Positions 7,983-41,769 of a stretch of DNA of 41,769 nucleotides are shown in pieces. The translations under genes and the position numbers were made by a program. The stretch lies in NCBI GenBank assembly GCA_946613135.1, contig CAMOFI010000002.1, positions 1-41,769 on the forward strand. The letters are read 5' to 3'. Each line of letters opens with the position of its first letter. Within the stretch, counting starts at the first letter, position 1. The notes beneath the pieces were generated by a model. The model was not told the DNA's origin. It did not search any database and was given only the letters and a program-made list of their open reading frames with translations. The DNA is from an uncultured Bacteroidales bacterium (GTDB lineage Bacteria > Bacteroidota > Bacteroidia > Bacteroidales > P3).

Positions 7983-10900
7983 CTAACGTTTGAGGACCAT
8001 TCTACGCATCAGACGCTGTCCGTCTTTCTCAATTCCGTAATAATAAACTCCAGTAGAGAGATTGTCGTCGCCAAAGGTGACAGACTGGTCTCCTGCCATG
8101 AATGTGCGCTGAGTCTGGTATACAAGACGTCCCATCTCGTCCATCACAAAGAAGCGTACATCGCCTGCCGTGGGCAGGAAGAAATCGATACGGGTCTTGC
8201 CGTCGAACGGGTTGGGGTAGTTTTGATGCAGTACCATTCCGTCTGTTGCACTCACGAAGGGAACGCCCTCGAAATAGTTGAGCACTTCCACACGCGTTGT
8301 CTGGTTATTGGACTGGTTATCGTCGCTATTGAACTCAAGGGTACAGCTTCCCACATACTCACGTGTAGAGCTCTTGGGAACCTTCTTGGACAATTCGACA
8401 GTAGAGAAATAGCCAGGCATAATGACACGTGCCACACCCCTTTCAACGATAGAGGTTCCATTGATTACGACATTCAACCTGAACGGCTGGTCAATACGAG
8501 AGGTGAGGTTACCGACGTTTCCGACCTCCACACGCACTCGGCAAGAGTCTTCGCGGTTCTCTTCGACAAGCACACGAATCGGGCTCAAGTCGAGGAACTG
8601 GCTGACGATGGTTTGCGTCGTGTCGTTCGTACGGTCATTGTCGTTTTCAGTATAGACGAACGCAGTGACATACTTGTAGTATTGGCTGTGGATCGGAAGC
8701 GGGTTGGGGAACTTGAAGTATAGCGAGCTGAGAGCAGGAAGCGGTGTGCTGGCATGGTAGATAGTGTCGATGAGCGTCGACGTATCGTTATAGTACCAGA
8801 AACCGATCTTGAAGTCGTTGACAGCACGAGCGCCCACGTTGTCGACGATAACCTGAATACGGGTAGCGTTCTGTGCAGAAGTGTCGACAACAACAGCACG
8901 GGCTTTAAGGTCGGTAATGGCTGAAAGGCCCTCGATACGCATACGTATAGTATCGTTGAACGGATAGTCGTCAACATCCATGTGGACAATAGCCATGAGA
9001 TCCATAATGCCCATCGAGGCACGGAATTTCTGATTGAACGAATAGTTAATGAATTCGAACGATTCGAGATCGTGGCCGATGATGTTGTTGAAATCGATAT
9101 TCTCCGTAACACGGAAGGTTTCATTATAGATGTATGTAACCGTGGCCTGCTGTACAGGTGCCTGTCCGTAGTTACGCAGACGAGTTGTGACAATGATGGA
9201 GTCGCCGGCAATGACATGGTCAAGCGGGCTTACAAAGCTGACAGCGCCCATATCATTGTCGAGTGGCGAGAGGTAGAACTCGTCACATACTGTGTCGTTG
9301 TCGCGATACATATCCATATTGATAGTGGTGTAGGCACATATCTGGAATGTATCGGGGAAATCGTTCCTGATTGTGAATGGAGTCTGGAACTCGTAGATGT
9401 CGGTAGCACCAGGCATGAGACCTGCGTCGTTGTGATAATTGCCTGTTATTGCAAGGCTGACACCATAAGGCAGGTAGGCAAGCGTGAAGTCGTAGAGCGT
9501 ATCGAGACCGTTGTTCTTGACAACCACACGCGGCTTGATCACCTGACCGAACCTCGGTTCGGTAGGATAAGTAATGGCTATAACCATTGCGTCGATAGGA
9601 CGTACAGCACGTCCGACAACAAAGTCGTCGATTGCCACACCGTCGCACGACTGAGATTCCGTTTCGGCCTTGTAGACAAGACGGAACTGGAGACGCTGCT
9701 GGAAGTCGCCACCAATTCTGTTGAGCGAAAAACGATGTAGCGAGTATCCATATCCAGCACTTGCACTATCCCATGAAGTAGCCGAGTTATACCAAAGCGT
9801 GTCGTTTCCTGAGCCAACTGTTTGCCAAAGTCCTCTGTAATCGCAGAACTCCAAACGGCAGAGATGACCAGCTGCCATGTCGCGAGCCACCCAGAGGTCG
9901 AGAGTGTCGGGACGAATTGTAGAGATGTCATAGATCGGGGTGTAGACATAGCTGACGTTACCTGTATTGAATACGTTGACAAATCCGTTGAGGTTTGTTG
10001 CCAGTACACTCGAATCGCTGACACAAGCCATAATGTTTGGTTTGTGCGTCCTGCCGCGTTGCCACAGGTTCTGGTCGAACATAGTGTAGCCTCGCGGAGT
10101 GAACCAGTCGCTCAGTCCTTCCATGTCGTCGCGATAAATCAGTCGTTTGATCGGAGCGCGATAGTATTGGTAATACAAAGTATCGTTGACAGTATTGGTA
10201 TCGCCATTAGTAGACACGCCAATGGTGAGGTTGGTAGTGCCAACGGCAAATACACGCGACGGCAGTTCAATGACTTCGCTCTGGCCAGGCTCGAGGTTGC
10301 CAGACCACTGAAGTGTCGACGTCTCAACTCCTGCCCTTAAATTGACATAGGAATAGTTGACAGTGGCTGAAGAGATAGGCTGACGGCCTTTGTTGATAAT
10401 CTGGAACGAGACTGCAACGGCAGAATCGGACGTGTAGCCGGTATGTCCGCCGATGTGCTGCGAACGCGGCGAGACGATACGCGAAGCGCATACATCGTAA
10501 TCCTCGGCCGGGACATCCTCGACATAGAGCAGATAGTCTTGGACACAACCGAACTGAATGTTATCTTCAGGCGTACGGGGGTGCAGAGCGCCCTGTTCCA
10601 AGACAACACGCATTCGCATATATCCGGTACGGACATCGTCAGGCAGCTTGAACAGGAACTTGGTAGGTATGCCACTGACAATCGAGTCGTGATGAATTAT
10701 TTCGGTGAAAGGATAAGCATACGATATGCTGTCGACGGCTGGAGTTCCCACCTGATAAGTCTCAGGAGAGAAACGGAAACTGCCATCGCGGTCGACATCG
10801 ATAAATACCGAGAGCCATCCCTTGGTGGAGAAGTCGTTAGACTTTTCGCTATTCATACATTCGACAATCATGGTGTCCTGCGTTCCTTTGACAAGACGCA

Positions 10901-13900
10901 AAGCACGCAAGGATCCAATCCCCTGAACATCGGTTTTGCCACCAAAGTCCTGCAAAGGTTCTTGTATCATTGACGGGTTGTTAATGATGGCATTCTGGAA
11001 GGTGGCATTGGTGAAGTTGATGTATTTGTGACCCGCCGGAGCCACGGTATTGTCAAGAGAACCGAAAGCCACACGGGTAATGTCGAGACCTGGCTTGTTT
11101 TCGACAACAGGCTCAGGATATACACTTTCTGGTGTGGCATAGAAGAACGACAAATTACGCAAAGTGTCATTAAGGCGTACGTTTTCGTTGGGCATATCAG
11201 TCCATACTCGCAAATGGTATGCGCTGGTTGTCGACCACGAAGGTATCGAAAGAAGAGAGTCGAAACGGAACACATACACAGAGTCGGGGTCTATGGAAGC
11301 AGTGCATATCTCAGTGACATGCTGCAAAAGCGTATTGCTGTTGTCGTAAAGTTCATAGACTACAGGAATATTCGTCATTGTCTGAGAACCATAGTTGATA
11401 AGGGCAAGCTTGACAGAGTCGTTGGTCATATAGACACGGTTGCCTACGGGTTCGACAACATCAAGCACTGCCATATCGACTGGCACGCGTGGGTTGAGCA
11501 TCACATGTACCGGACTGTAGTAGCTGGTACAGCCTTGGTTGCTTACACAGCAGAGGTAGTATACCGAATCATGGAAGTATTGCGGTGTTTCCCACCATGT
11601 AGACCTATTATAGTTGTTGGATGTGAAAAATGGAGCCTCAGTAGAGTCGCGATACCACATAATCGGACGGTGGATTGGATTGCCTGTCGGCGGGTTGTCT
11701 GTCTGAGAGGCATGGATGGTATCCCAAGTGGCATACGGTATGTGCAGGTCAACGCCCACAGGCGAATTGGGAGTGTAGTACGACTGGTGGTTCGCGAAAG
11801 AGGAAGTGTCGTTCATTGGCTTGAGGTCATACTGGTAAGCAGACCATGCACGAGTTTGGACTACAATATCTTTGTCGTTTCCTGTAGGATACAGGTTGGC
11901 AGTCTGAGTAAATGTCAGACTGACCGATGCATTGGGTTCGACATCGACAGGCAATGCTATTTCTTCCTGCCACGAAACAGGTAGTGTAGACACGGTGATA
12001 CCTGTCGTTTGGAGTCGAGCATTGAAGCCGACAGGCACTATCGTGCCGGCAGTAAACGTCTTGCGGCCCACATTGGTCAGCTGAACGCCCACAACAGTAT
12101 TGTGCAGACGGCATTTGGTTCCTTCTTCTACAATGGAATGGTCGGCCCTCAAGTTGTAGGCAGGATCGAGGAAACACTTTCCTTCAAGAGTGTTGTTGGA
12201 CGGAGCTGCATCGTTATCCAACGGGAAATGGATGACAACAATTTGTGTGTCGATAACGCCCAACGGCATCAAAATGAAGTTGGAATCGGTCACACTTCCC
12301 TGAGGCAAGAGTTCATCAATGATATGGTCGGAACTGCGCAGTACGGGAGTGACATCCTTGATTTCGGCCCACCAGCGCAGGTTGCTTTCCGTAGAGGTAC
12401 CATCGTTGAAAAGGGTTACCTTCACCCAGAGTGTATCGCCTTCAATATTGTCAGTGAAGCCAGTGGTTTGGGCAGCATAGAGCTTTATACCGGGTTTGTG
12501 GATTTCCTGTACGGCAATGTTGTGAGTCTTGCGGAGGAACTCGTGCGCACCCATACACGGACTCGGAATCTGAGGACGAATATAGCCGTCTATATCGAGA
12601 GGCGCCTCTGTGTTGTACTGGGCCTTTTCGCAGAAGGTTCCGAGTGAAAGATGCAGATCGGTGTTCGACTCGAAGAACGGTTTAAGGTTGAGTGAGTTGT
12701 CGTCTTTGTGGTTGGCAGTGCGAAGGTCGATCATATTGGCAACCTCGTTACCGCCCCAGTACGCAAGGCGTACCTCGGACGACGACCAATAGTTGTTGTA
12801 GTTGGAGTTCTCAACATTGGCAGCCATCTGTACGTAGTATGCGTATCCGGCGCTGATGTTGGAGAAGATATTGTTCATGATAAAGACACTGGAGCTGGTC
12901 GTGGTGACCTTCATGGCTGCAGTGTTGGCAGCCGAATTGGCATTGCCTGCAAAGACCTGTACCGAGTTGTAATAGGCATTCACCCAAGTGGAGCTGTCGA
13001 TCCATATACCGACCGATCCTGAATGGTCGTTACCGTAAATGGCACACATGTTGTTGGTCACATGGCAACGAGTTGCATTGGCACCATTAGAGTTGATCAA
13101 CTTGATACCAACCTTTGAACCTTTATAGTTATCACTAATTACGACGTTATTGCGTTCTATGGTAACAGGGCCATTATGTTCGGCAACGAGAATACCGGTA
13201 AGCGGACGTGCCGCATTGGCTCCCGTCCTGACTTCGTTGTGGTAAATATACACGTCATCGACCTTTCGCAGGAGGATGCCTGTTGTAGTGAAGTTTACAA
13301 ACGAGTTGTTGTTGAGGTAAACGCCATCTGAGGCACCGGGTTGAGATACCGTCGAGCGGATTGCACAATAGCCACTGTCGACAGTGCAATAATCCATATA
13401 GACCGCATGGACTCCCGAGCTGATGACGACACCAGATGCATTGATATTGTTGAGGCCTCCCTTGACTCGTATGTTCATATTCTTGAACCGGATCTGAGAA
13501 GAGTTGTTGACAACAACTGCATTGGAATAGTTGCTTGCTCCACGGGCCAGAATGGTCATGCCCTTAAAGTTGATGAAACTGGCGCTGTCGATATTGAGCA
13601 CATAATTACTGTTGTTGACTGGAGCGAACCTGATTGTCACGTTTGTCGGGTCGATGGTGTCGCCGACAAAAGTAACCTTGTTAGCAGCCGACACACCGTC
13701 GACAGCACCGATTGTCACTTGTTCGACATAGACACCATTTTCGACAGCAAAGATTACTGGACCATCGATACCAGCATTATGGAGTGTATCGGTCGCTGTG
13801 GCAAAGTCCTCGTACAATCCGTTAGGACCGATAGTATATGTGCCGCCGCAGAAACGGACATTAATCATTTTCGATATAGTGTCATTGGTTTGAACGGTAT

Positions 13901-16900
13901 CTTCCGGTTGCGTCACGGCCATGCGAAGGAAGTGGCGACCCGGAGTAAAGAGATAGTCGGCCACGTTGACCAAAACGGTCTCGTCAGATTCGATAGTGTC
14001 GGTTCCTTGGAACACGGTATGGAAATCGTTGTCGATCCAACAGTCGATTGTATAGTTGGTCAAAGATTCACCTCCCATATTACGCAGATTGATTGTCAAT
14101 GCCGTTGTATCGCACGATGTATACGAAGTGACGCTGTCCGCCTGCCATGATATGGCTGCGTCAGCTGTCGGAACATCGACAATGGCAATGTAAACCGGTT
14201 TAGGTTCACTTTCACATCCGTAGCCCACAAAGCCAAACTGTATGTCAGGACGATTGTTACCGCGACTACCATTGCCCATAAATCTGACAAGACTTGAATC
14301 ATTGCCGTGCTTTGTAAGGACTCTGTTCGTCGATGAAGTGTAGCGTGTCTTAGCACCTTGTGTATGTGCAGGATCGATACTACGAGTAATCTGGACAACA
14401 ATATTGTCGGTGCCGTTCCAATGGAAAGCATTGTCGAGATTGTGAGTTATCCAGCCCTTAGTGCTATTGGAGAAGTGGAGGCTGTCAGCAGAGTAGCACT
14501 CCGTGACCGGCTGCCAGTTGGAATTGCCTGTAAACTGTTGTTGGTTAGTCGAAGCCATGTAAATCTTATAGTCGGTAAAATCGAAACTTCCACTTCCTAA
14601 GATTGTATCAAGATAGAAGCTGACAGTCTGTATAGGACCTGCCGTCTGGCCTGCCGCCTGGAGTTCTGAAGCAAGATAGATATACTGTTCCTTCAAATAC
14701 TTCTTGTTTGGATTGTAGGGCGAAGGATAAGCGGTGGCGTTGTTTGTAGATGTCAAGTTTCCAATATGTAGCGTATTGATGCGAGCTCCGAAAGTGGAGA
14801 CATAGAATGTGTCAGGTTCATACAAATAGTCTGTCACGTACACATTGGTTGTATCGAGAGGCTGCATATTGCGGTCATACCACGCCAGCGAGTCGGTAGG
14901 TGGAGTGAGAGACTGGAGTGTGGCTCTTGTGTTGTAGGATACGGTATCCCATCTTCTGACATTTGCGCTGTCGGGCATAAACATCGAAGTAAGCGACATG
15001 CGCAGTGTGTCGTTGAACGAGGCGACGTCGGAAGCAAGACTCTCTACCCATACCAAAACGTCAAAATCGACAGATGCCGATGCGACAGTGAAGTCGGGAA
15101 CAGAGCTGAACGTATAGGTTGTTGTCGACCCGGCAGCAAAACCGGCAGCGATAGTGTCGCTGCATGTCTGCAAGACAGCAGCCTGGCCATTATATTGGGG
15201 ATATCCATCTATCCTGTATTTGAGGATTGTCTGTCCGCTGGGCTGTGCTCCACGGTTGTGGACCGTGATAGTGATCGGCGAGGGTCCCATACCGCAGCCA
15301 TCCTCCAACGAAAGATCTTCGAGAGCGATATCGACATTAGGCAGGTTGATCATGTGGATTCTGACGGGAGCATAGTCACCGATACATCCATTGTCGCGGA
15401 AACGAATCAGGTTCTCGTTGGTGGTTCCCATTGTCATCCTGTTGTTGTCGTCAGAACGTTGCCAACGATTGGCTGTATTGCTCAGCGAGGCCGTTGGCGA
15501 AGGCCATGCTTTACGGAAGATACCGGCAGTAGGTATAGAGTCGGGCAGAGAAATGCCGGCGCCATACCATATATTGTTAGGTACATTCAGGTTAGTCCAC
15601 GCCGTTTGTGTCGTGATGTCGTTGATTGCAACTGCATCGCGAACAATGCCACCACTAATATAAGCTATACCGAGATTTACCGTCTGGGCCGGAGCAAGGG
15701 ACATCGGTGCCGCTATGGTTTTTGACGAGTCGACATTGTTGATACCTGAGCGGTACTGCAAGACGATCGACTGACCGGGTTGTATAACAAGGTTAGGCAT
15801 GCGATAAATTTTGTTATTGAACGAACCCGTGGTGCTGACGACCTTAATTGTATCGTCCAAAACGTAGGCAGGATAGTCGCCGATATTGGTGAGTTCCAAT
15901 GCCATTGCTGTAGAGGCATGCATCCACAGCGGCATAGGATATGTTACACCTGGTGCATTCTGTTTCAGCTGTACCTCAGTAATTTTCACGAGCGGGAAAT
16001 CACGTTTCTGACGGATATAGAATGTCGTGTCGGTATAAAGCGGGTCTGTGGTAAATGTGTTGCCGCGCCAAATGGCACTGTCGCTATCGGGCGAGAGATA
16101 CCAATAAACAGCCGACTTGTGCGATGTGCTGGAAGTGTACACGTTCGAATACCATGTTTGAAGTCCACCCGTGGCTGTAACTGTGGCTGCCGTACCATAG
16201 TCGACATTGACCGAGATACTGTCAGGGGCCGGTGCATGGTAATGCGAAGTGACAAACATAGAGTTGGTATCGTTCGCCGGGTTGGGGTCGATTGATGATG
16301 TAGTGAGCCAAGCATAAAGCTGATAAGTAGTGTCGCTCGTACCTACAGTATTGAAGGGAATAGTCACGCCCGGGTCGAACACTACCGTATCAAGGGCAGG
16401 AATGGGTATGTTGATTACAACATCGCCTGAGACACCTGGCAGCAGAACTCCCGGCGTCGTGCCACGAGAGTAAGAAAAGTGCATCAGCGGCGAGGCTGTC
16501 GTTGGGTCGTAGGCATTGACACCGCTATTCTTGATGACAACACGAAGAGGAGCAGCGCCTGGCGCCACGCAGTACTCATCGAAAGGCTCGAGGAACTCGA
16601 GGATTTCGAAGTCATACGGAAGTGCAGAGAACTCGAATGCTCCGACACATGGGGCTACAGCGTCACGCACATTGCCGAAAATATCATTTTGAATCTCAGC
16701 AATAGGCACGCCATGAGCCTTGACATTTTGGCTGTACGAACGGAGGTCGGTCTGAGTGCTGTTCAAGAATGCCGGGTTGACATTCTGAGAATTACCATCC
16801 ATTGAGCAGTGGGTCTGCCAGTTGGCAAAAGTGAGACAGTTGATACCGTCATACTTGTTCAGCAGAGGACTACGCGAATAATATATATTGTATCCTATAT

Positions 16901-19898
16901 AATTAGAGGCATCTTCGGTTGGGATGTAGTTGAACGCAAAGTTGACAGTATCGTAACATCCTACAATATTGTTGTAGAAATAGCTGTTCTCAAGAACACC
17001 ACCACCGAATGTAGCAGCCGCTATGCCGCTGCGTGAAGGAGCTATGAGTTTGATGGAGTTGAATATAATCTTGGCGTAATTGGCAGTAATGACGTTGAGT
17101 GGGGTTGTGAGCATGTTCGACAATCCTGCATCATTGCTCACTAACATATTGTTGGCAATAACAGCATAGGCCGACGCCGAGCCGATAAGACCTGTGGCAC
17201 CGAGACACGATGCACCCGATGTGACATATACCGTGTTGCGGGTAACGGTGGTTGCACCGCTACAGTCTTGGATGAGTATGGCATAACTTGAGTTGGCGTA
17301 GAGGTCGTCGCAAGTATTGCTGTCAACCACTGCGTCGATCTGGTTACGGATGATGGCGCTGTTGACACCCTGATGCGAGAACGAGTTGCCTATCACGCGG
17401 CTGCCTCGAGCCATATTGTCCGTAGCCGGACCCACAAGGCTCAGACCTGCAGTACCGCGGTTGAAGGTACACCCCTGTACCAACAGGGAGTCGGCACCGC
17501 CTGAGTACAGGAGTGCAGTAGCGGCCATGTACGATTCAGCAAGCGTGCCACCCTGAACCTCGCTGAACGTACAGTCAAGGAATTGGCATCCCTTACTGTT
17601 GGTACCCAAACGCACTAAATAGGTTGCAGGATTTGACGCAGCATTGGCAAGGAAATTAATGTTTTTGAAACGCACATGGTGTGTCTGCTGCAGGTTGACA
17701 AGCGAGTTGACCCATGCCGTGTCCGACATTGCAGAGACAAATGTAACTGAATTACTCAGAGGTTCAAACTGCACATAGTTGGTTGCCGATATGCCAGGTA
17801 TCGACGGGAAGGTGTGCGGCATATAGTAACCCGGGGCCAATTTAACGACGAGGGGACCGTTGACACCGCACTGGCTCAGTGCATAGAGCATCTTCTCGAG
17901 CGAGGCGTAGTCGGGCGTCGAGCCACCGACGGTACGCACACCGCTCATTGGACCATCGCAGCTGATGAATCTTGTCCAAAGAGTATCATTGAAAGGTTCG
18001 TGGTCGCGATAGCGCACTCCTGCCGAGAGCACCGAGTCGTCGACCCAGGCCAGCATCTCATGATAACCTGCCGGATATTGCTGGGTCGTGCTGATTGCGA
18101 CATTGGCTGTTGCACCGCCAGCAAGATTTCCAGTCCAATCGTAATATTGATGTGCTCCGTTATCCACGCTATAATATATACGCACTGCATTGATAGGCAA
18201 TGCACCATAGTTCTTCAAAGTCACTACGACATCGTTGTTGCCCACTGCATTGGCTGGCGTAGTGTCGTTGGGGTTGACAAAGCCGCTGATGCCGCAATCG
18301 TAGAGTAGCGGAGCATTCGGATTGACCCTCAACATGAAATTGGGGCGCACAGTTGTCAACGTTCCGTTCTGGTAATATGGAGAGTTAAACGGGTCCATAT
18401 TGTACGAGGTATTATATTCTATATGGACCGTTCCTGTATTTGTATTAGCCTGGGCTGGGAATGTACGCACAGATATGCCGGCGGGATCTCCGGCCATCTG
18501 GTCATTGATCATTGTGATCATCAAGCCCTTGCCTGCATAGAAGAATGTGTCCTGCAGGTTGATAGTTCCGTATGTGCCGCTGTTTTGGGTAATAGTGAAA
18601 TTGGTAGAATCGAATACCACTTTTTGGAATTCTGACGAAAATGCCACCTGTTCCGTTCCTGTATACGAGAAATTGTTATCGACATTGTGCATCTTGATCA
18701 TCAAGTGGCTGTATGTATTCGATACATTGTTGGCTACCGGGAAACGAATCTGGGTTATGGCACCTGGACCAAACGATCCTTGAGCCATCTCGCTGCTGTC
18801 GTAGACAATCTCGCTTTTGAAGTCGCCCATACTCGGGAACGGCACTGCGTTTGATGCATTGAAGTTAACCGGAGATATCGTTGTATTCATATCCTTGCCT
18901 CGAACACATCTGAATCTGTTCCATGTAGAGATATCTTCCGGGAAGTTTGTCTGGTTGTGGTTGACAGAATTATCCTTACCAATTATACGCCACTTGACAA
19001 TAGTGTCGTAGCCGCAAAATGGCAGGTAAGTCTCGTAACGGCCGGGAACAGCCGCCACGGGCGACATTGTTTTGCGCAAAGTCGGGGCATTGCTTCCGAG
19101 CTGATACTCTACGTATACCGAGTCATTACACATGCCCTGCGCCAAAGAAGTGGTGAAATCGGCAGCGATATGGGCACCGCGGCTGTTGGGATAAGTCTCA
19201 AGATCTGGATAGTCGACCATTTTCATTACAGGCAGGAGCATAGAATTGGGGCTGCACTGGACTTTTATGTTATCGAGATACCAACCTTCGTTTGTAGAAC
19301 CTGCCTGAGACCTCTGAAGGAGTCGGAATCGGATCTGGAGTTTACGTTGTGCCAGCGGAGCACTCGTCACTTTAAGGGCAAGTTTGAATCGCTCACGTTT
19401 CCACCATGTTCCGTTGAGATTCGTTCCCTGCCAAGCTGCATAGGAACGCTCCGAGAAGGAACTGTTCAGGGCGTACTCAGAGGAGCCGCCACCCCACGAC
19501 ACATCGTAGTAGTCAGTACCATTCAGGGTTTGCCACTGAATCTCGTCGACTCTCTTTACCTGAATCGTTGCAACATTTACAGAAGGACACACCAATGGAT
19601 CCACGTCGCAGATGTGCATAAACTCAAGGTAGAAGTGCTGGAACGAGCCATTGTCGGTGAAGTCGATGGTATCGAGCACCACCTCGACAATTCCTGACTG
19701 AGAATGCTGAAGTTTGAGCGAACGGCTACCCGACGACGCGATAGTTGTCACGGGAACGGCAGAACCTTCTGTCACGGTATAGCCATAAGTTTCGCCCGTT
19801 GCCTCAAATCCCTGTTGGTACTTTGTCACGATCTGACCATTGGCCGAAAAAGCCAAAATCAGGGAAATCAGTCCCAAAAGCAATGATCTTTTTTTCAT
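7983..19898 (-). CDS. Giant modular secreted protein with T9SS type A sorting domain (putative surface adhesin)
   Basis: 3971 residues in one open frame. A signal peptide is at 1 to about 22. MAM/concanavalin-like jelly rolls lie at about 30-215 (ending GWYLDNIKV) and 3257-3425 (ending DGVAIDDFVV). A related pair of beta modules lies at about 340-545 and 1715-1905. Two right-handed beta-helix regions, about 650-1090 and 2014-2450, each start with a Tyr-Asp/Glu-rich segment and end CxGAxEF. A lamin-tail-like part lies near 1300, and Ig-like modules with a WY pair near 1230, 1670 and 2730. About twelve CARDB-like sandwiches end in NDT or NNT (near 637, 1208, 1629, 2004, 2563, 2695, 2910, 3235, 3537, 3647, 3757, 3860). 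A GEVED-like domain lies at about 3000-3125. The last 80 residues, starting LHQNYPNPF, are a T9SS type A sorting domain. No catalytic site was recognised; an adhesin or scaffold is the best inference. Confidence 0.9.
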   Translation of the reverse strand: MKKRSLLLGLISLILAFSANGQIVTKYQQGFEATGETYGYTVTEGSAVPVTTIASSGSRSLKLQHSQSGIVEVVLDTIDFTDNGSFQHFYLEFMHICDVDPLVCPSVNVATIQVKRVDEIQWQTLNGTDYYDVSWGGGSSEYALNSSFSERSYAAWQGTNLNGTWWKRERFKLALKVTSAPLAQRKLQIRFRLLQRSQAGSTNEGWYLDNIKVQCSPNSMLLPVMKMVDYPDLETYPNSRGAHIAADFTTSLAQGMCNDSVYVEYQLGSNAPTLRKTMSPVAAVPGRYETYLPFCGYDTIVKWRIIGKDNSVNHNQTNFPEDISTWNRFRCVRGKDMNTTISPVNFNASNAVPFPSMGDFKSEIVYDSSEMAQGSFGPGAITQIRFPVANNVSNTYSHLMIKMHNVDNNFSYTGTEQVAFSSEFQKVVFDSTNFTITQNSGTYGTINLQDTFFYAGKGLMITMINDQMAGDPAGISVRTFPAQANTNTGTVHIEYNTSYNMDPFNSPYYQNGTLTTVRPNFMLRVNPNAPLLYDCGISGFVNPNDTTPANAVGNNDVVVTLKNYGALPINAVRIYYSVDNGAHQYYDWTGNLAGGATANVAISTTQQYPAGYHEMLAWVDDSVLSAGVRYRDHEPFNDTLWTRFISCDGPMSGVRTVGGSTPDYASLEKMLYALSQCGVNGPLVVKLAPGYYMPHTFPSIPGISATNYVQFEPLSNSVTFVSAMSDTAWVNSLVNLQQTHHVRFKNINFLANAASNPATYLVRLGTNSKGCQFLDCTFSEVQGGTLAESYMAATALLYSGGADSLLVQGCTFNRGTAGLSLVGPATDNMARGSRVIGNSFSHQGVNSAIIRNQIDAVVDSNTCDDLYANSSYAILIQDCSGATTVTRNTVYVTSGASCLGATGLIGSASAYAVIANNMLVSNDAGLSNMLTTPLNVITANYAKIIFNSIKLIAPSRSGIAAATFGGGVLENSYFYNNIVGCYDTVNFAFNYIPTEDASNYIGYNIYYSRSPLLNKYDGINCLTFANWQTHCSMDGNSQNVNPAFLNSTQTDLRSYSQNVKAHGVPIAEIQNDIFGNVRDAVAPCVGAFEFSALPYDFEILEFLEPFDEYCVAPGAAPLRVVIKNSGVNAYDPTTASPLMHFSYSRGTTPGVLLPGVSGDVVINIPIPALDTVVFDPGVTIPFNTVGTSDTTYQLYAWLTTSSIDPNPANDTNSMFVTSHYHAPAPDSISVNVDYGTAATVTATGGLQTWYSNVYTSSTSHKSAVYWYLSPDSDSAIWRGNTFTTDPLYTDTTFYIRQKRDFPLVKITEVQLKQNAPGVTYPMPLWMHASTAMALELTNIGDYPAYVLDDTIKVVSTTGSFNNKIYRMPNLVIQPGQSIVLQYRSGINNVDSSKTIAAPMSLAPAQTVNLGIAYISGGIVRDAVAINDITTQTAWTNLNVPNNIWYGAGISLPDSIPTAGIFRKAWPSPTASLSNTANRWQRSDDNNRMTMGTTNENLIRFRDNGCIGDYAPVRIHMINLPNVDIALEDLSLEDGCGMGPSPITITVHNRGAQPSGQTILKYRIDGYPQYNGQAAVLQTCSDTIAAGFAAGSTTTYTFSSVPDFTVASASVDFDVLVWVESLASDVASFNDTLRMSLTSMFMPDSANVRRWDTVSYNTRATLQSLTPPTDSLAWYDRNMQPLDTTNVYVTDYLYEPDTFYVSTFGARINTLHIGNLTSTNNATAYPSPYNPNKKYLKEQYIYLASELQAAGQTAGPIQTVSFYLDTILGSGSFDFTDYKIYMASTNQQQFTGNSNWQPVTECYSADSLHFSNSTKGWITHNLDNAFHWNGTDNIVVQITRSIDPAHTQGAKTRYTSSTNRVLTKHGNDSSLVRFMGNGSRGNNRPDIQFGFVGYGCESEPKPVYIAIVDVPTADAAISWQADSVTSYTSCDTTALTINLRNMGGESLTNYTIDCWIDNDFHTVFQGTDTIESDETVLVNVADYLFTPGRHFLRMAVTQPEDTVQTNDTISKMINVRFCGGTYTIGPNGLYEDFATATDTLHNAGIDGPVIFAVENGVYVEQVTIGAVDGVSAANKVTFVGDTIDPTNVTIRFAPVNNSNYVLNIDSASFINFKGMTILARGASNYSNAVVVNNSSQIRFKNMNIRVKGGLNNINASGVVISSGVHAVYMDYCTVDSGYCAIRSTVSQPGASDGVYLNNNSFVNFTTTGILLRKVDDVYIYHNEVRTGANAARPLTGILVAEHNGPVTIERNNVVISDNYKGSKVGIKLINSNGANATRCHVTNNMCAIYGNDHSGSVGIWIDSSTWVNAYYNSVQVFAGNANSAANTAAMKVTTTSSSVFIMNNIFSNISAGYAYYVQMAANVENSNYNNYWSSSEVRLAYWGGNEVANMIDLRTANHKDDNSLNLKPFFESNTDLHLSLGTFCEKAQYNTEAPLDIDGYIRPQIPSPCMGAHEFLRKTHNIAVQEIHKPGIKLYAAQTTGFTDNIEGDTLWVKVTLFNDGTSTESNLRWWAEIKDVTPVLRSSDHIIDELLPQGSVTDSNFILMPLGVIDTQIVVIHFPLDNDAAPSNNTLEGKCFLDPAYNLRADHSIVEEGTKCRLHNTVVGVQLTNVGRKTFTAGTIVPVGFNARLQTTGITVSTLPVSWQEEIALPVDVEPNASVSLTFTQTANLYPTGNDKDIVVQTRAWSAYQYDLKPMNDTSSFANHQSYYTPNSPVGVDLHIPYATWDTIHASQTDNPPTGNPIHRPIMWYRDSTEAPFFTSNNYNRSTWWETPQYFHDSVYYLCCVSNQGCTSYYSPVHVMLNPRVPVDMAVLDVVEPVGNRVYMTNDSVKLALINYGSQTMTNIPVVYELYDNSNTLLQHVTEICTASIDPDSVYVFRFDSLLSIPSWSTTSAYHLRVWTDMPNENVRLNDTLRNLSFFYATPESVYPEPVVENKPGLDITRVAFGSLDNTVAPAGHKYINFTNATFQNAIINNPSMIQEPLQDFGGKTDVQGIGSLRALRLVKGTQDTMIVECMNSEKSNDFSTKGWLSVFIDVDRDGSFRFSPETYQVGTPAVDSISYAYPFTEIIHHDSIVSGIPTKFLFKLPDDVRTGYMRMRVVLEQGALHPRTPEDNIQFGCVQDYLLYVEDVPAEDYDVCASRIVSPRSQHIGGHTGYTSDSAVAVSFQIINKGRQPISSATVNYSYVNLRAGVETSTLQWSGNLEPGQSEVIELPSRVFAVGTTNLTIGVSTNGDTNTVNDTLYYQYYRAPIKRLIYRDDMEGLSDWFTPRGYTMFDQNLWQRGRTHKPNIMACVSDSSVLATNLNGFVNVFNTGNVSYVYTPIYDISTIRPDTLDLWVARDMAAGHLCRLEFCDYRGLWQTVGSGNDTLWYNSATSWDSASAGYGYSLHRFSLNRIGGDFQQRLQFRLVYKAETESQSCDGVAIDDFVVGRAVRPIDAMVIAITYPTEPRFGQVIKPRVVVKNNGLDTLYDFTLAYLPYGVSLAITGNYHNDAGLMPGATDIYEFQTPFTIRNDFPDTFQICAYTTINMDMYRDNDTVCDEFYLSPLDNDMGAVSFVSPLDHVIAGDSIIVTTRLRNYGQAPVQQATVTYIYNETFRVTENIDFNNIIGHDLESFEFINYSFNQKFRASMGIMDLMAIVHMDVDDYPFNDTIRMRIEGLSAITDLKARAVVVDTSAQNATRIQVIVDNVGARAVNDFKIGFWYYNDTSTLIDTIYHASTPLPALSSLYFKFPNPLPIHSQYYKYVTAFVYTENDNDRTNDTTQTIVSQFLDLSPIRVLVEENREDSCRVRVEVGNVGNLTSRIDQPFRLNVVINGTSIVERGVARVIMPGYFSTVELSKKVPKSSTREYVGSCTLEFNSDDNQSNNQTTRVEVLNYFEGVPFVSATDGMVLHQNYPNPFDGKTRIDFFLPTAGDVRFFVMDEMGRLVYQTQRTFMAGDQSVTFGDDNLSTGVYYYGIEKDGQRLMRRMVLKR

Positions 19899-38700: not shown

Positions 38701-39874
38701 CTTTGTCGGCAATCTCACGCGTATTCTCAAGGGCTTCAGGGATATCGGCAAAAATTGCGGCCATCTCGTCAGGCGACTTAAGCCACTCCTGTTTGGTATA
38801 ATGCATGCGGTCCGGATCGTCAAAGTCTTTGCCTGTACTAAGACATATCAGACGGTCGTGGGCCTCGCCATGTTCTTCCTCTACAAAATGCACATCGTTG
38901 GTGGCAACCAGTTTGATATGGTATTTTTCGGCGAATTGGACAAGATATGCATTCACTTTCACCTGTTTTTCGTACGTGTCGTAGGCAGCATTGGGTTTGT
39001 CTGTCTTGTGGCGCTGCAACTCGAGGTAAAAATCGTCGCCAAACAGGTTCTTGAACCACCTGACAGCCTCTTCTGCACCCTCAATATCATTCTTCATGAT
39101 TTTCTGAGGAATTTCGCCACCAATACATGCTGAACAGCAAATGATACCTTCGTGGTACTGTTCCAGCACTTTATGGTCTATACGCGGATTGTAGAAAAAA
39201 CCGTCGGTGAATGCTATCGAACTGAGTTTGCATAGATTTTTATATCCCTGCTTGTTTTTTGCAAGCAATATAAGGTGCCATCCGCTACGGTCGGTAATAC
39301 GTTCCCTGCCCGTTTCCGGGTCTCGCTCCTTCACATTGGCGTCTTTGTCATAAAGTGTGCGGTGTGCACAATAGGCCTCTATGCCGATTATCGGCTTGAA
39401 CAGCGACGCATTCAGACTTTCAATCTCCCTATTGCTGTCTTCGATAGCCTCCAGCCTGCGGTGTTCTATAGCAGCCAGATCTTCCTCGGTGGGCTCTGTC
39501 TCAGTCTGTTTTCTCTCTTCTTGTGGTTCTGGCACTTGGCTCTCCACCGCTGCCTGCTCTGCCTGTTCCTTTTCCGCCTGCTGCCGCCTCAGCTCCTCCT
39601 CTTGGTCTTTTTTCTCAAAATACTTAAATGCCTTTGCCGGTTTGCTCATCTCCCCAACAAACTTCTTCAACTCTTTAATTCTCTCCGTCTTGTCTTTATT
39701 CTCCTTATTTACAGTATCCACCAACTCCTTTATACCGAACATATTGCCATGATCCGTAAGGGCCATGGCATTCATCCCGTTCTTTTTGCATTTTTTTATC
39801 AAGTCGGGCACTTTCGACATTCCATCAAGAATAGAGTAATGCGAGTGTACATGTAAGTGGGTGAAATAAGGCAT
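35777..39874 (-). CDS. dnaE: DNA polymerase III subunit alpha
   Basis: 1365 residues, longer than E. coli DnaE (about 1160). This is the catalytic subunit of the replicative polymerase. The PHP domain starts HLHVHSHYSILDGMS, with LTDHGNMFG at 39-47. A highly charged insertion of about 100 residues (57-158, Glu/Gln/Lys-rich) interrupts it before FKPIIGIEAYC. The polymerase core has GRGSAAGS near 530 and the catalytic Asp residues in PDIDVDFDD near 570. HhH motifs and an OB fold (near 1150-1240) follow, then a C-terminal extension. Bacteroidota DnaE proteins commonly carry a shorter insertion at this PHP position, so the insertion is probably genuine but expanded here. It leads a series with GSCFA (4-nt overlap), ddl, nitroreductase and TIGR02757. 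Confidence 0.96.
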   Translation of the reverse strand: MPYFTHLHVHSHYSILDGMSKVPDLIKKCKKNGMNAMALTDHGNMFGIKELVDTVNKENKDKTERIKELKKFVGEMSKPAKAFKYFEKKDQEEELRRQQAEKEQAEQAAVESQVPEPQEERKQTETEPTEEDLAAIEHRRLEAIEDSNREIESLNASLFKPIIGIEAYCAHRTLYDKDANVKERDPETGRERITDRSGWHLILLAKNKQGYKNLCKLSSIAFTDGFFYNPRIDHKVLEQYHEGIICCSACIGGEIPQKIMKNDIEGAEEAVRWFKNLFGDDFYLELQRHKTDKPNAAYDTYEKQVKVNAYLVQFAEKYHIKLVATNDVHFVEEEHGEAHDRLICLSTGKDFDDPDRMHYTKQEWLKSPDEMAAIFADIPEALENTREIADKVEFYSIDSDPIMPMFDIPASFGSEEEYRSRITEQELFDEFTRNEKGEVVLDQKKAEDKIHKLGGYDKLYRIKFEADYLSKLVWEGAHKRYGDELTEEQIERITFELHTIKTMGFPGYFLIVADYIRGAREELGVSVGPGRGSAAGSVVAYCLWITDIDPLKYDLLFERFLNPDRISLPDIDVDFDDAGRGKVLDWITEKYGKEKVAHIITYGTMASKSSIADVGRVQKVPLGVVNQIKSYIPDRGFPENIKDEKGKSPKVNLKNCYKYVPELRNIMESPDSEKFMDVPCSEIKSMLTYAEELEDTNRQTGIHACGVIIGADDLTKFAPMCTIKDKDTGEDVLVTQYDGHVIETVGLIKMDFLGLKNLTIIKDALRNIKKRTGEDVDIDHIPIDDELTYKLFCEGNTVGTFQFESAGMQKYLRELQPHVFEDLIAMNALYRPGPMDYIPDFIERKQGRKPVEYDIPCMEKYLKDTYGITVYQEQVMLLSRQLANFTRGQSDTLRKAMGKKQIEKMNELEVLFYEGGEKNGHPKEKLQKIWEDWKKFASYAFNKSHATCYSWVAYQTAYLKAHYPAEYMAAVMTSSLSDITRVTELMEDCRRNKIEILAPSVNESDINFSVNEHGQIRFGLSAIKGMGEAAAQVIIDEREKNGPYEDIFNMLDRIDMRTVNRKNLEVLVKSGALDQLKGMHRAQYMHRDVSSENAPTFLEKLIRWQTHKREAAGSGQFDMFASVEELKTESLPTIPECEPWTSLEQCNYEKEVVGFYLTGHPLNDYRDEMYNYATISVVQLNDLESLLARREVRFGGIVTDAFSGISPKNGDPYGSMTIEDYQGSYQLRLYGQDCLKYRSFFVKGLFVFVQADIVQNVFKKGDELTKSKPRIKISKMMLLKDVMESYTKSMNFHINIEDLTEDFCKKLKKYARQNKGSVQLTVNVDDRTHNMSLFMSSGEMNVEPKMFAKVLAGMPEVKNVTFNGK

Positions 39875-39908
39875 ACTATACTTGTTTTAAGGTGAGCATT
39901 AGAGGTTG

Positions 39909-39916
39909 TAAAAATA
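39909..39916 (-). promoter_or_regulatory. Candidate -7 promoter box for dnaE
   Basis: The minus strand reads TATTTTTA, one mismatch from TAnnTTTG, preceded by TTTTTTTTGTG, much like the sequence before the bcp box. It lies 35-42 nt before the dnaE ATG and directly after the terminator hairpin. Support is weak. Confidence 0.35.
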
Positions 39917-39919
39917 CAC

Positions 39920-39960
39920 AAAAAAAACGCTTTTGAAAGGGCCCGAAAAGCGTTTTTTTT
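39920..39960. terminator. Bidirectional-looking Rho-independent terminator between the YD-repeat-like gene and dnaE
   Basis: Perfect 15-bp arms at 39920-39934 and 39946-39960 (AAAAAAAACGCTTTT and its complement) flank an 11-nt GC-rich loop. Runs of T follow the GC core in both directions. It probably ends the minus-strand YD-repeat-like transcript, 82 nt past its stop, just before the dnaE promoter. Confidence 0.85.
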
Positions 39961-40042
39961 CAACAATGGAGTTACCGAAGACAATAACAAGCTGTTACGG
40001 CATAAAATGCATGTCGCTTTTTGTCGGCAGAGTGCGACGGGG

Positions 40043-40765
40043 TCAAGGCTGGCCGTAATATTCGATGGTGCGCTCGATGGTGTACATCGGCTGGCCGTTG
40101 AGCGAGTAGCGGCAGTGGGTCCAGTTGCCGCGGCGGTCGTATGTGTATGTGCGCATTTCGGTGGTTATGGTCACCTCGTCGTCGTTGTAGAAGGTCTGGG
40201 TGCGCTTTTTCAGGTTGCCCTTTTTGTCATATTTGCGCCGCTCAGTCCAGAGCAGCAGCTCGTCGGCGGTATACTGCTCGATGGAGGCCAGACGTTCTTT
40301 TTTGTCATAAGTGCTGACGGTACGTTTCGTGACGACGGTGCTGTCGGGGTGGTAGGTGTACTCGATGCTCATTGCCAGGTTGCCGCCTTCGGCATAGATG
40401 CAGTGCGTCGACGAAATCAGACGCTTGCGAAGGTCGTACTGGCGCAACTCGATAACGTCGCCGTCGTAGTCGAAGGTGTATTGCTTGTTCTGGCTTATAT
40501 CACTCAGCGTCAATGGATATCGCGTCGTGCGTTCGCCACCGAAGCCGCGTTTGCGGTACTCCTTGAGGTGCCCTGTCGAGTCGAACAGGTAGGTCTCCTG
40601 GAAGTTGTTGTCGTTACCGCCATCATATTTCTGTACGACAGTGATTTGCCGTGGCCACGCCCGCAGGTTGTAGGTGTCGTAGTCGGGTTGTGTGAGCCCT
40701 TGGCGCGTGTGCTGCGCATACATCAGACAGGGAAACAAGAATAAGACGCAAAAGATTTTTTTCAT
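40043..40765 (-). CDS. Secreted YD-repeat-like (RHS-like) protein of unknown function
   Basis: 240 residues. A signal peptide (MKKIFCVLFLFPCLMYAQ) predicts export. The body is a series of beta strands resembling YD repeats: YLFDSTGHLKEYRK, YTFDYDGDVIELRQYDLRKR, STYDKKERLASIEQY, RRKYDKKGNLKKRTQTFY and YTYDRRGNWTHCRY, each a strand, a Y-D-x-x-G turn and a strand. Such short RHS-like proteins are frequent in Bacteroidota, and their function is unknown. There is no sorting domain or lipobox, so a periplasmic location is possible. The gene is visibly more GC-rich than the repeat block upstream of it. A strong terminator follows. Confidence 0.75.
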   Translation of the reverse strand: MKKIFCVLFLFPCLMYAQHTRQGLTQPDYDTYNLRAWPRQITVVQKYDGGNDNNFQETYLFDSTGHLKEYRKRGFGGERTTRYPLTLSDISQNKQYTFDYDGDVIELRQYDLRKRLISSTHCIYAEGGNLAMSIEYTYHPDSTVVTKRTVSTYDKKERLASIEQYTADELLLWTERRKYDKKGNLKKRTQTFYNDDEVTITTEMRTYTYDRRGNWTHCRYSLNGQPMYTIERTIEYYGQP

Positions 40766-40856
40766 AATAATCGTTACTGTTTGGCCTGCTGCCGCAAGCT
40801 TTAATGTTAAAACGGCAATTGTCAGTTTTTTTAAATCTATTATCTTTTTAAAAACA

Positions 40857-41003
40857 GCAATTATGTTTTTTAAACAGCAATTACCAGCAATTGGACAGCA
40901 ATTATCAGCAATTGTCTGTTTTATTATACCAGCAATTAATCAGCAATTATCAGCAATTGTCTGTTTTATTATAACAGCAATTGGACGGCAATTGTCAGCA
41001 ATT
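40857..41003. repeat. Array of GCAATT short repeats, left of the GxxExxY gene
   Basis: Eleven copies of the core GCAATT, nearly all preceded by CA, start at 40857, 40877, 40887, 40898, 40908, 40932, 40943, 40953, 40977, 40988 and 40998; an outlier is at 40815. Spacing is mostly 10-11 or 20-24 nt, close to whole helical turns. A 45-bp higher-order unit is duplicated in tandem at 40896-40940 and 40941-40985. The array ends 3 nt before the GxxExxY stop codon. Confidence 0.9.
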
Positions 41004-41006
41004 GAA

Positions 41007-41438
41007 TTATTCATAAAATTGTTTTAGTGATTTGTTCAGTAAGATGCATTCATTATTTTGAGTGTCAAAATAATAACGCTCACCATATAGACTCTCTTGT
41101 CCAAAATTCAACAATAGACCGATACTCTTTTTTGTAAGTCTAAGGTAGTTGAACAGTTGAGAGCGATGCTCTGGCATAATTTGGTCTACAGCCTTAAGTT
41201 CAATGATTATATCGTCGGCAACGATGTCCATCCTATAGAACTTGTTGAGTTTGCGACCTTTATAATAACATTCAAGCAGTTTCTCGGATTCGTTTTCAAT
41301 GCCCATATCAAGCAACTCTATATGCAAAGCCTCATTATATACAGCCTCCAACAATCCATACCCCAGCTCGTTATGCACGTTCATCGCAGCACCAATTATT
41401 TTGTACACTAAATCCTTGTATGTACTCAAATCTTTCAT
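41007..41438 (-). CDS. GxxExxY protein (PD-(D/E)xK-like fold)
   Basis: 143 residues. The family-defining motif G-x-x-E-x-x-Y is seen as GLLEAVY near 28-34 in ELGYGLLEAVYNEAL. RMDIVADDIIIELKAVD supplies the Asp and ExK residues expected of a PD-(D/E)xK nuclease-like core, and RSQLFNYLRLTKKSIGLLLNFG is the typical C-terminal helix-strand. The family (TIGR04256/PDDEXK_3) has no established function. The gene is AT-rich, unlike the GC-rich neighbours on each side, and is enclosed by two short-repeat arrays of opposite orientation. This context suggests an acquired or mobile cassette; that part is inference. Confidence 0.88.
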   Translation of the reverse strand: MKDLSTYKDLVYKIIGAAMNVHNELGYGLLEAVYNEALHIELLDMGIENESEKLLECYYKGRKLNKFYRMDIVADDIIIELKAVDQIMPEHRSQLFNYLRLTKKSIGLLLNFGQESLYGERYYFDTQNNECILLNKSLKQFYE

Positions 41439-41464
41439 AAATATAGTAAAATGATGTTAATAAA

Positions 41465-41591
41465 AATTGCTGATTAATTGCTGTAAAAAGAAATTGCTGA
41501 TAATTGCTGATTAATTGCTGGTAATTGCTGTTAAAAAAAATAATTATTGCTGTTTAAAAAATAATTATTGCTGTTTAAAAAGCTGATAATT
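41465..41591. repeat. Array of AATTGC short repeats, right of the GxxExxY gene (inverted relative to the left array)
   Basis: Six AATTGC cores start at 41465, 41476, 41492, 41502, 41513 and 41523, each followed by TG. Two variants (TAATTATTGCTG, near 41541 and 41562) and one decayed copy near 41586 follow. The two variants form a 21-bp tandem unit. Orientation is the reverse of the left array, so transcripts through the whole segment could pair arm to arm. The array stops about 15 nt before the ettA stop codon. Confidence 0.88.
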
Positions 41592-41606
41592 CCTGTCTAA
41601 AATAGT

Positions 41607-41769
41607 TTATTGCAGTTTTTTATAGTGGAAGCGGTGGGGTGTGTCGTCGCCGAGGCGCTTGCGGCGATTTTCCTCGTATTCGGAGTAGCTGCCTTCGAAG
41701 AAGTAGACCTGCGAGTCGCCCTCAAAGGCGAGGATGTGGGTGCAGATGCGGTCAAGGAACCAGCGGTCG
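41607..41769 (-). CDS. ettA: Energy-dependent translational throttle protein EttA, C-terminal fragment at window edge
   Basis: Only the last 53 residues are in the window, ending LHYKKLQ-like after PHR. The segments [37 protein letters not shown] and PHRFHYKKL are the characteristic EttA C-terminus, just after the second ABC domain's switch region. EttA is an ABC-F protein that binds the ribosomal E site and tunes the first elongation step to the ATP/ADP ratio. The 5' part lies outside, to the right. The stop codon is at 41607-41609, and the AATTGC repeat array follows immediately in the 3' direction. Confidence 0.88.

Follow-up and report, generated by a model that had tools for sequence, protein, structure and literature searches.

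RAYTs are described as tyrosine transposases of the IS200/IS605 type that occur with palindromic REP sequences, their Y1 transposase domain being Pfam01797 (Transposase_17) (PMC2817692), and REPINs as REP doublets that form hairpins (PMC3116915). The locus that we describe resembles a RAYT/REP/REPIN system in that a lone nuclease-type gene lies between inverted repeats, in that the repeats change with the protein, and in that gene-less extragenic copies, mosaics of repeat modules and inverted pairs capable of forming hairpins occur alongside it. It differs from RAYTs in that its protein is of the PD-(D/E)XK type and not a Y1 transposase, and in that its repeats are non-palindromic direct units phased at ~9-11 nt, whereas those of RAYTs are palindromic REPs. 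Since neither the protein nor the palindromes that define RAYTs are found here, we do not file the locus as a RAYT, only as working like one.

The window, that is, the whole stretch of 41,769 nucleotides that was analysed, is an entire contig (C2) of a 1.74 Mb assembly that comprises 140 contigs and is 75% complete. The gene under study (41007..41438, minus strand) encodes a GxxExxY protein of 143 aa with a predicted PD-(D/E)XK nuclease fold, as profile searches matched it to PF13366 (PDDEXK_3), its sole Pfam match, at 125.5 bits (cut-off 22) and to TIGR04256 at 131.3 bits (cut-off 35). Neither the Y1 transposase domain nor the S23/IVP profile PF05635 was matched in the Pfam search, and a PDB sequence search with the protein gave matches at chance level only. 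Residues E31, Y34, D71, E80, K82, Q94, Y98 and N111 are all present, the catalytic D...ExK lying on a conserved alpha-beta core, and among the aligned GxxExxY proteins D71 and E80 were found in 181/181 and K82 in 178/181. The PD-(D/E)XK fold has been linked to the mobility of elements in homing endonucleases and in the TnsA subunit of Tn7; homing enzymes belong to introns or inteins and cleave alleles that lack these, and TnsA needs partner proteins, whereas the GxxExxY cassette is intergenic and holds a single gene. PD-(D/E)XK proteins are not known to move DNA on their own, which counts against the mobile reading that we favour below.

As to a role in defence, defence profiles gave nothing convincing, the window protein drawing only a weak match (Cas4, 19.5 bits). 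Another GxxExxY protein, used as query, matched none of 50,697 phage records and eight of 72,556 plasmid records. The genome of the window carries a second GxxExxY gene (contig C37, L039/L031), which is broken by a stop at the position of the catalytic lysine and whose flanks carry a different unit, GGAAATCTT. The window also contains an open reading frame of 3971 codons (7983-19898, minus strand), very long given the size of the genome.

Short repeats pointing toward the GxxExxY gene flank it on both sides. On its 3' side (40813..41003, plus strand) we located twelve GCAATT cores, ten within exact CAGCAATT units and two within CGGCAATT, at 40815, 40857, 40877, 40887, 40898, 40908, 40932, 40943, 40953, 40977, 40988 and 40998 (spacings of 42, 20, 10, 11, 10, 24, 11, 10, 24, 11 and 10). 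On its 5' side (41465..41530, minus strand) lie six exact CAGCAATT units, present as AATTGCTG at 41465-41523 with spacings of 11, 16, 10, 11 and 10, and outside them a set of decayed units (41541..41595, minus strand), namely TATTGCTG at 41545 and 41566 and AATTCCTG at 41588. The outermost of these ends 11 nt from the stop codon of ettA (41607-41609), whose 3' end (53 codons and the stop, 41607..41769, minus strand) forms the upstream border of the insertion junction; the 53 C-terminal residues are 100% identical to those of its ortholog in a relative (G053), a protein that is 553 aa long and scores 948 bits to EttA, which confirms the gene as ettA. The neighbouring gene on the other side (40043..40765, minus strand) encodes 240 aa without a Pfam match. 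The first-pass annotation had described eleven cores at the 3' side of the gene, six cores and decayed copies in opposite orientation at its 5' side, an AT-rich segment, and an end within 15 nt of the ettA stop, and each of these was recovered, with one further core (40815) outside the range it had covered and with a GC content of ~0.32-0.38 in the segment versus 0.55 further left (the right side being known for only ~160 nt). As to its phasing of about 10-11 nt or multiples of that, most spacings are 10 or 11, and some are 16, 20, 24 and 42.

The octamer CAGCAATT, which is non-palindromic and occurs as phased direct arrays, is found 16 times in the window, always within 40855-41530 and in the orientations given above, whereas 100 shuffles of the window gave 2.2 on average and never more than 5, a difference that led us to reject chance clustering. 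The bare hexamer GCAATT, with 42 occurrences across the window versus 31.8 expected, is not rare; what stands out is the clustering and the octamer, not the bare hexamer. A CRISPR-like array was likewise rejected, as spacers of constant length are absent and the gene interrupts the array, and so was a known RNA, as an Rfam search of 39800-41769 returned one miRNA match at chance level (22 bits versus a gathering score of 94). Phased repeats near a start codon are typical of operators, and the repeats found here do lie close to a start codon, so that the units could be operators for the nuclease-fold protein's own gene, with the downstream arm serving as a terminator or roadblock, and the covariation of protein and unit that we report below would follow. 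Yet this reading leaves unexplained why the downstream arm is inverted, why solo arrays occur far from the gene and why the nuclease residues are conserved, and we hold it to be very improbable.

To place these arrays in a wider context, we searched for PF13366 in 59 genomes of the genus, of which 42 were positive (102 matches listed), and in 118 genomes of the phylum, of which 60 were positive. The genus set was made up of 71 of the 102 matches (the 73 best, from which a tandem second copy and a broken gene were dropped; the set does not extend to the 29 matches that were weakest or partial), and the phylum set, from other genera, of the best match from each of 30 of the 60 positive genomes. 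The 250 nt upstream of each gene were then aligned with the 250 nt downstream of it, the latter in reverse complement. At the 71 genus loci the median score of a gene's own pair was 20.5, versus 8.5 for mismatched pairs and 9.0 for the direct orientation, and 51 of them ranked in the top 5% when set against the cross pairs in the row and column of the same locus (3.6 expected); in the phylum set, 16/30 ranked in the top 5% of cross pairs. Scores of at least 13 were reached at 20/30 phylum loci and at 55/71 genus loci, where the repeats that the first-pass annotation had expected beside related genes indeed appear as matching inverted arms, with units that vary; the remaining 16/71 genus genes, which stay under this threshold, run against that expectation. 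We read these as decayed arms. Scores under 13 were also found for 10/30 phylum genes and 31/77 genes of the named genomes described below, and such low scores count against our main reading. ParE toxin genes gave 1/30 in the top 5% and 0/30 at 13 or above, which led us to reject a general property of small mobile genes, and DUF486 genes of the same genus gave 0/30 at 13 or above with a maximum of 11 (one of the 30, in G053, adjoins a cassette, on one side only), which led us to reject a property of any intergenic gap in the genus. These data show that the inverted arms belong to the GxxExxY gene family.

Within 59 strong segments of the genus and phylum sets (score of at least 15 and length of at least 24), 29 had their best internal lag at 9 nt and 18 had it at 10 nt (47/59). 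A candidate outer motif shared by the arms, TT(T)A1-3[CG], stays weak: near the ends of upstream arms it was seen in 15/48 genus and 16/33 named cases versus 0.12-0.14 at random positions, and in 1/13 of the phylum set versus 0.15.

We next compared gene junctions across the genus. The end of ettA was matched in 57/59 genomes, in 54 of them at 81% identity or more, the other three matches being weak and paralog-like. Among 30 ettA loci compared by tblastn with ten GxxExxY proteins, three (G000, G042 and G045) hold a GxxExxY relative, one (G054) holds a remnant, and 26 hold neither, the absence of units at these 26 being judged by eye over 300 nt (217 nt in G055); in the comparison that the first-pass annotation had called for, the locus past the 3' end of ettA thus exists both with and without the insertion. 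The cassettes of G000 and G042 encode proteins that are 94% identical and carry CAGCAATT units, and in G045 a related gene occupies this place, between two arms that both carry another unit, of the CGACAATT type. The remnant in G054 consists of CAGGAATT/CAGAAATT units, an ATG and eleven codons that resemble the start of a GxxExxY gene, a stop, and then a single inverted unit, followed by the next gene. In G053, G033 and G035 the ortholog of 40043-40765 lies directly after ettA (by eye), and at one of the two ettA matches of G043 its start is overlapped by the ettA stop. These two ettA ends of G043 are near-identical (C24:4555-4713 and C4:28982-29137, each 98% to the query) and reflect a duplication or a mixed bin.

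A second junction gave a similar picture. In G053 a CACGAATT cassette lies directly after the DUF486 (PF04342) gene, the only one of 30 DUF486 loci compared to hold a GxxExxY relative, while at the same junction in G045, G012, G049 and G004 the next gene starts no more than 10 bases past the stop; outside these 30, G017 carries a cassette with a CATAAATT-type unit there. G054 encodes, between other genes, a protein with 83% identity to the CACGAATT protein of G053, and its DUF486 junction is without the CACGAATT cassette; close relatives with same-type arms thus occupy different places. The cassette is therefore present or absent at orthologous gene junctions, both after ettA and after DUF486, and together with the family-wide inverted arms and the close relatives beside different neighbours this upholds the notion of a self-contained cassette. 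By eye, the DUF486 insertion shows no clear target-site duplication. Against mobility stands that we saw neither excision products nor target-site duplications nor insertions within a species, genomes at the species level having diverged too far for the joint to be placed.

Junctions that lack the cassette are often not empty. Several of the 26 cassette-free ettA junctions (for example G040, G058 and G017) hold short gene-less inverted pairs made of other words, and among 23 DUF486 junctions inspected, some, such as those of G054, G042, G019 and G008, hold gene-less tandem or inverted repeats, also of other words. At cassette-free ettA and DUF486 ends (for example L262, L266, L265, L372, L375, L379 and L382) these repeats are frequent and include, for example, TTCAACGATA repeated and then its inverse, or tandem GCGGAAA. 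As gene-less repeats of other kinds occur at both junctions, these ends appear to collect repeats of more than one origin, which counts against our main reading. Cassettes or remnants at the ettA junction differ in their units from species to species (L090, L107 and L245), and two species far apart from each other both use the DUF486 junction; certain gene ends may be favoured sites. At the cassette of G053 (contig C12, L084, ~1891-1960), the 3' arm appears to give the downstream gene a new start codon (MEIRVSKIKL...).

Intervening sequences of 23S rRNA hold a small open reading frame within an inverted-repeat stem, and the segment studied here could be read in the same way. Its transcript (40800-41620, minus strand) folds at -232 kcal/mol versus -160 ± 8 for 20 shuffles (z -8.9), as a single long stem with the open reading frame in the loop. 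The cassette may accordingly act at the RNA level: transcribed from the upstream gene, it would be tolerated in operons as intervening sequences are in 23S rRNA, its arms would pair into a stem, and the nuclease or RNase III would excise it from the mRNA, with mobility being rare or secondary. At both junctions examined the cassette begins a few bases past a stop codon, and its arms are alike within a locus and unlike between loci, as in a covarying stem. Genes of PF05635, the family of the 23S rRNA intervening sequences, are in the same phylum also bracketed by inverted arms of short units (L139-L168; 17/30 in the top 5%, 13/30 at 13 or above), and although their units are other ones, a parallel system may exist there. 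The two differ, in that the proteins are unrelated and the GxxExxY cassette follows ettA instead of lying in rRNA. Matching repeats fold regardless of function, however, and pairing leaves unexplained both the repetition of a ~9-11-nt unit with its inward polarity and the dispersed solo modules that point one way, so that we regard an RNA-level element as unlikely.

The units of GxxExxY genes are diverse, those seen including CAGCAATT, CACGAATT, CGACAATT, GGCGAATTACTC, GGAAATCTT, CGACAAC, AATCAGA and CACAGAG/CACGAAG. We compared the similarity of units, scored with the arms crossed and so not as direct homology of one flank, with that of proteins over 2387 non-syntenic pairs of the genus (pairs without a common neighbour protein within ~1.4 kb, syntenic ones being able to include paralogous neighbours), and obtained a Mantel rho of 0.31 against 500 permutations with a standard deviation of 0.026 and a maximum of 0.076. 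Units were shared by 12/12 pairs at a protein identity of at least 80%, by 85% of 20 pairs at 70-80%, 40% of 87 at 60-70% and 19% of 248 at 50-60%; in the range of 30-50% identity the share was ~0-1%. Gene pairs from the same genome with matched arms had different units in 28/32 cases, and a single repeat type for each whole genome was thus rejected.

Named genomes were scanned with a five-sequence alignment, keeping the best 80 of 569 relatives, 77 of which had enough flank, for a total of 178 loci across the three sets. Of these 77 loci, 40 have two or more inward-pointing CRCRRAG units in each of their arms, in a clade that spans at least seven phyla (group labels assigned by hand from record titles): Bacteroidota 22/41, Planctomycetota 9/12, Chloroflexi 2/4, Proteobacteria 2/3, Acidobacteria 1/4, Chlorobi/Ignavibacteria 1/3, and Cyanobacteria, Bacillota and unclassified 1/1 each. 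Seven further groups, each with one locus and one of them archaeal, lacked this arrangement. It was found at 0/71 genus loci and 11/30 phylum loci, in 0/1540 shuffled flanks and at 0/30 ParE loci, and its absence from the PF05635 (S23) loci (0/30) marks a further difference from the intervening-sequence proteins. Upstream of the 77 genes CRCRRAG was counted 160 times forward versus 68 reverse, and downstream 55 versus 166. By the alignment measure 46 of the named loci scored 13 or above (25/77 did so in direct orientation), and 27/77 ranked in the top 5% when compared with cross pairs that in many cases have the unit in common. In the phylum sample, the genomes with three consecutive CRCRRAG units were all among the 60 GxxExxY positives of 118 (6/6), a modest fit to the prediction that such genomes carry GxxExxY (hypergeometric ~0.015 by hand arithmetic).

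To summarize, these comparisons of sequence show arms and protein diverging together. From this covariation and from the near-invariant active-site residues we infer that the protein may recognise its own repeats, which it may also cut. Linkage alone, with the arms inherited along with the gene, can yield covariation of protein and unit without recognition, and it can explain part of what we see, though not easily that arms within a cassette are alike while the arms of cassettes in the same place have diverged.

Arrays also occur without the gene. Pairs of CAGCAATT were found in 5/59 genus genomes (G000 36, G005 120, G034 1, G042 55 and G054 94), while the other 54 lacked them, and a reversed control pattern gave two matches, both in G023. 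Twenty stretches of G005, G042 and G054 contained 41 CAGCAATT clusters, 18 of them with exactly four exact units and 39 of them outside open reading frames of at least 150 aa, and several sites are mosaics of ~four-unit modules (CAGGAATT/CAGAAATT, CAGCAATT and CGTGAAT/CATAAATG) with a T-rich spacer before each. The genome of the window has arrays on contigs C12, C47, C77, C89, C111 and C122 as well, five of these six at contig ends, where hidden genes are thus possible. Pairs of CACGAATT, found in 21/59 genomes, are not class-specific in general, unlike the exact-spacer form CACGAATTGCCACGAATT, which occurs in eight genomes (15 copies in G054), seven of them with a CACGAATT-type gene, its broken form or an adjacent GxxExxY match. 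In G113, whose 12 GxxExxY matches are the highest number in any genome of the phylum sample, two gene-less inverted pairs of the CACGAAG type, each ~95 bp, lie 4 kb apart (contig C5, L367 and L369) and are MITE- or REPIN-like. They resemble the arms of gene-bearing elements, as MITEs would, and differ from MITEs in that no target-site duplication was recognised and the gene-bearing GxxExxY element encodes no known transposase. GC-rich palindromes such as CGCTCGCTTGCGAGCG and CCGCCTGCGGCGG directly adjoin unit arrays at some loci (L230, L241 and the flanks of L042, L048 and L051), as if REP-like palindromes and unit arrays shared sites.

Unit modules without a gene are thus dispersed in the intergenic DNA of some genomes, and we read them as solo derivatives. 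They accord with the suggestion of the first-pass annotation that the cassette may spread through its repeats, a suggestion that stands only in this part, as no transposition event was observed; and arrays without a GxxExxY gene, which it had named as a sign against its reading, are common in a few genomes. As in RAYT systems, gene-less dispersed copies share a genome with the cassette in the genome of the window and in G042, the counter-case being CGACAATT: predicted to be dispersed in G045, it was found there in the cassette itself only, with one further match in G017, and has not spread (56 matches of the reversed CGACAATT control in G005 arise because this pattern reads the CAGCAATT arrays of that genome). 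G005 is a real difficulty for the link between gene and repeat, as its 120 CAGCAATT and 42 CACGAATT pairs (L232-L239) are accompanied by two weak partial GxxExxY matches and none of full length. G054, too, has 94 CAGCAATT pairs, yet its two GxxExxY genes carry other units.

Arrays for which no matching gene was found, as in G005 and G054, would be expected if another enzyme spread the repeats and GxxExxY genes were carried along by chance, and the similar architecture around unrelated PF05635 genes and the use of the same junctions by gene-less repeats of other kinds would fit such passengers as well. Yet units differ among the GxxExxY genes of one genome (28/32 pairs) and follow the protein clade across phyla, which a shared outside enzyme would not bring about; we consider passenger genes improbable.

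The segment is, in our judgement, probably a single copy of a minimal element that is, or once was, mobile, a PD-(D/E)XK gene between inverted arrays of ~9-11-nt units, and on our best reading it would work like a RAYT/REPIN system, although neither its nuclease nor its type of repeat is related to those of that system. The protein would bind its own unit in the form of phased multimers, since units about one helical turn apart suggest several proteins on one face of the DNA. It would act on both inverted arms, whether these form a duplex or a hairpin, and cut them so that the cassette is relocated or copied; cleavage of hairpinned arms while the DNA is replicated, followed by repair-mediated copying, would fit. 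It may also serve solo modules in trans, as RAYTs are thought to serve REPs, and such modules may arise in part by internal deletion of cassettes, of which the remnant after ettA in G054 could be an example. The main weaknesses of this reading are that no event was observed, the arrays of G005, the CAGCAATT pairs of G054 without a CAGCAATT gene, and the failed prediction for CGACAATT. A broader proposal, which we put forward more tentatively as a serious possibility, is that of an undescribed class found in many phyla, in which a lone nuclease reads units of ~10 nt, moves its own gene, serves REPIN-like solo modules and co-evolves with its units, and on which S23/PF05635 would have converged.

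In the literature searched, subscription papers and preprints being outside its scope, we found no description that links GxxExxY to repeats and no paper that contains any of six example repeat strings, and the architecture appears to be that of a minimal mobile element of a kind not recognised before. GxxExxY proteins are common and are named by their motif alone, no function for them having been found in the same literature, and their tie to inverted arrays of cognate units gives them a testable role. It also offers an origin for the short repeats of the CACAGAG/CACGAAG type that recur in unrelated bacteria, and the many natural pairs of protein and unit may hold a code for the recognition of DNA or RNA. 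Beside RAYTs, this would be a second solution for the maintenance of intergenic repeats in bacteria.
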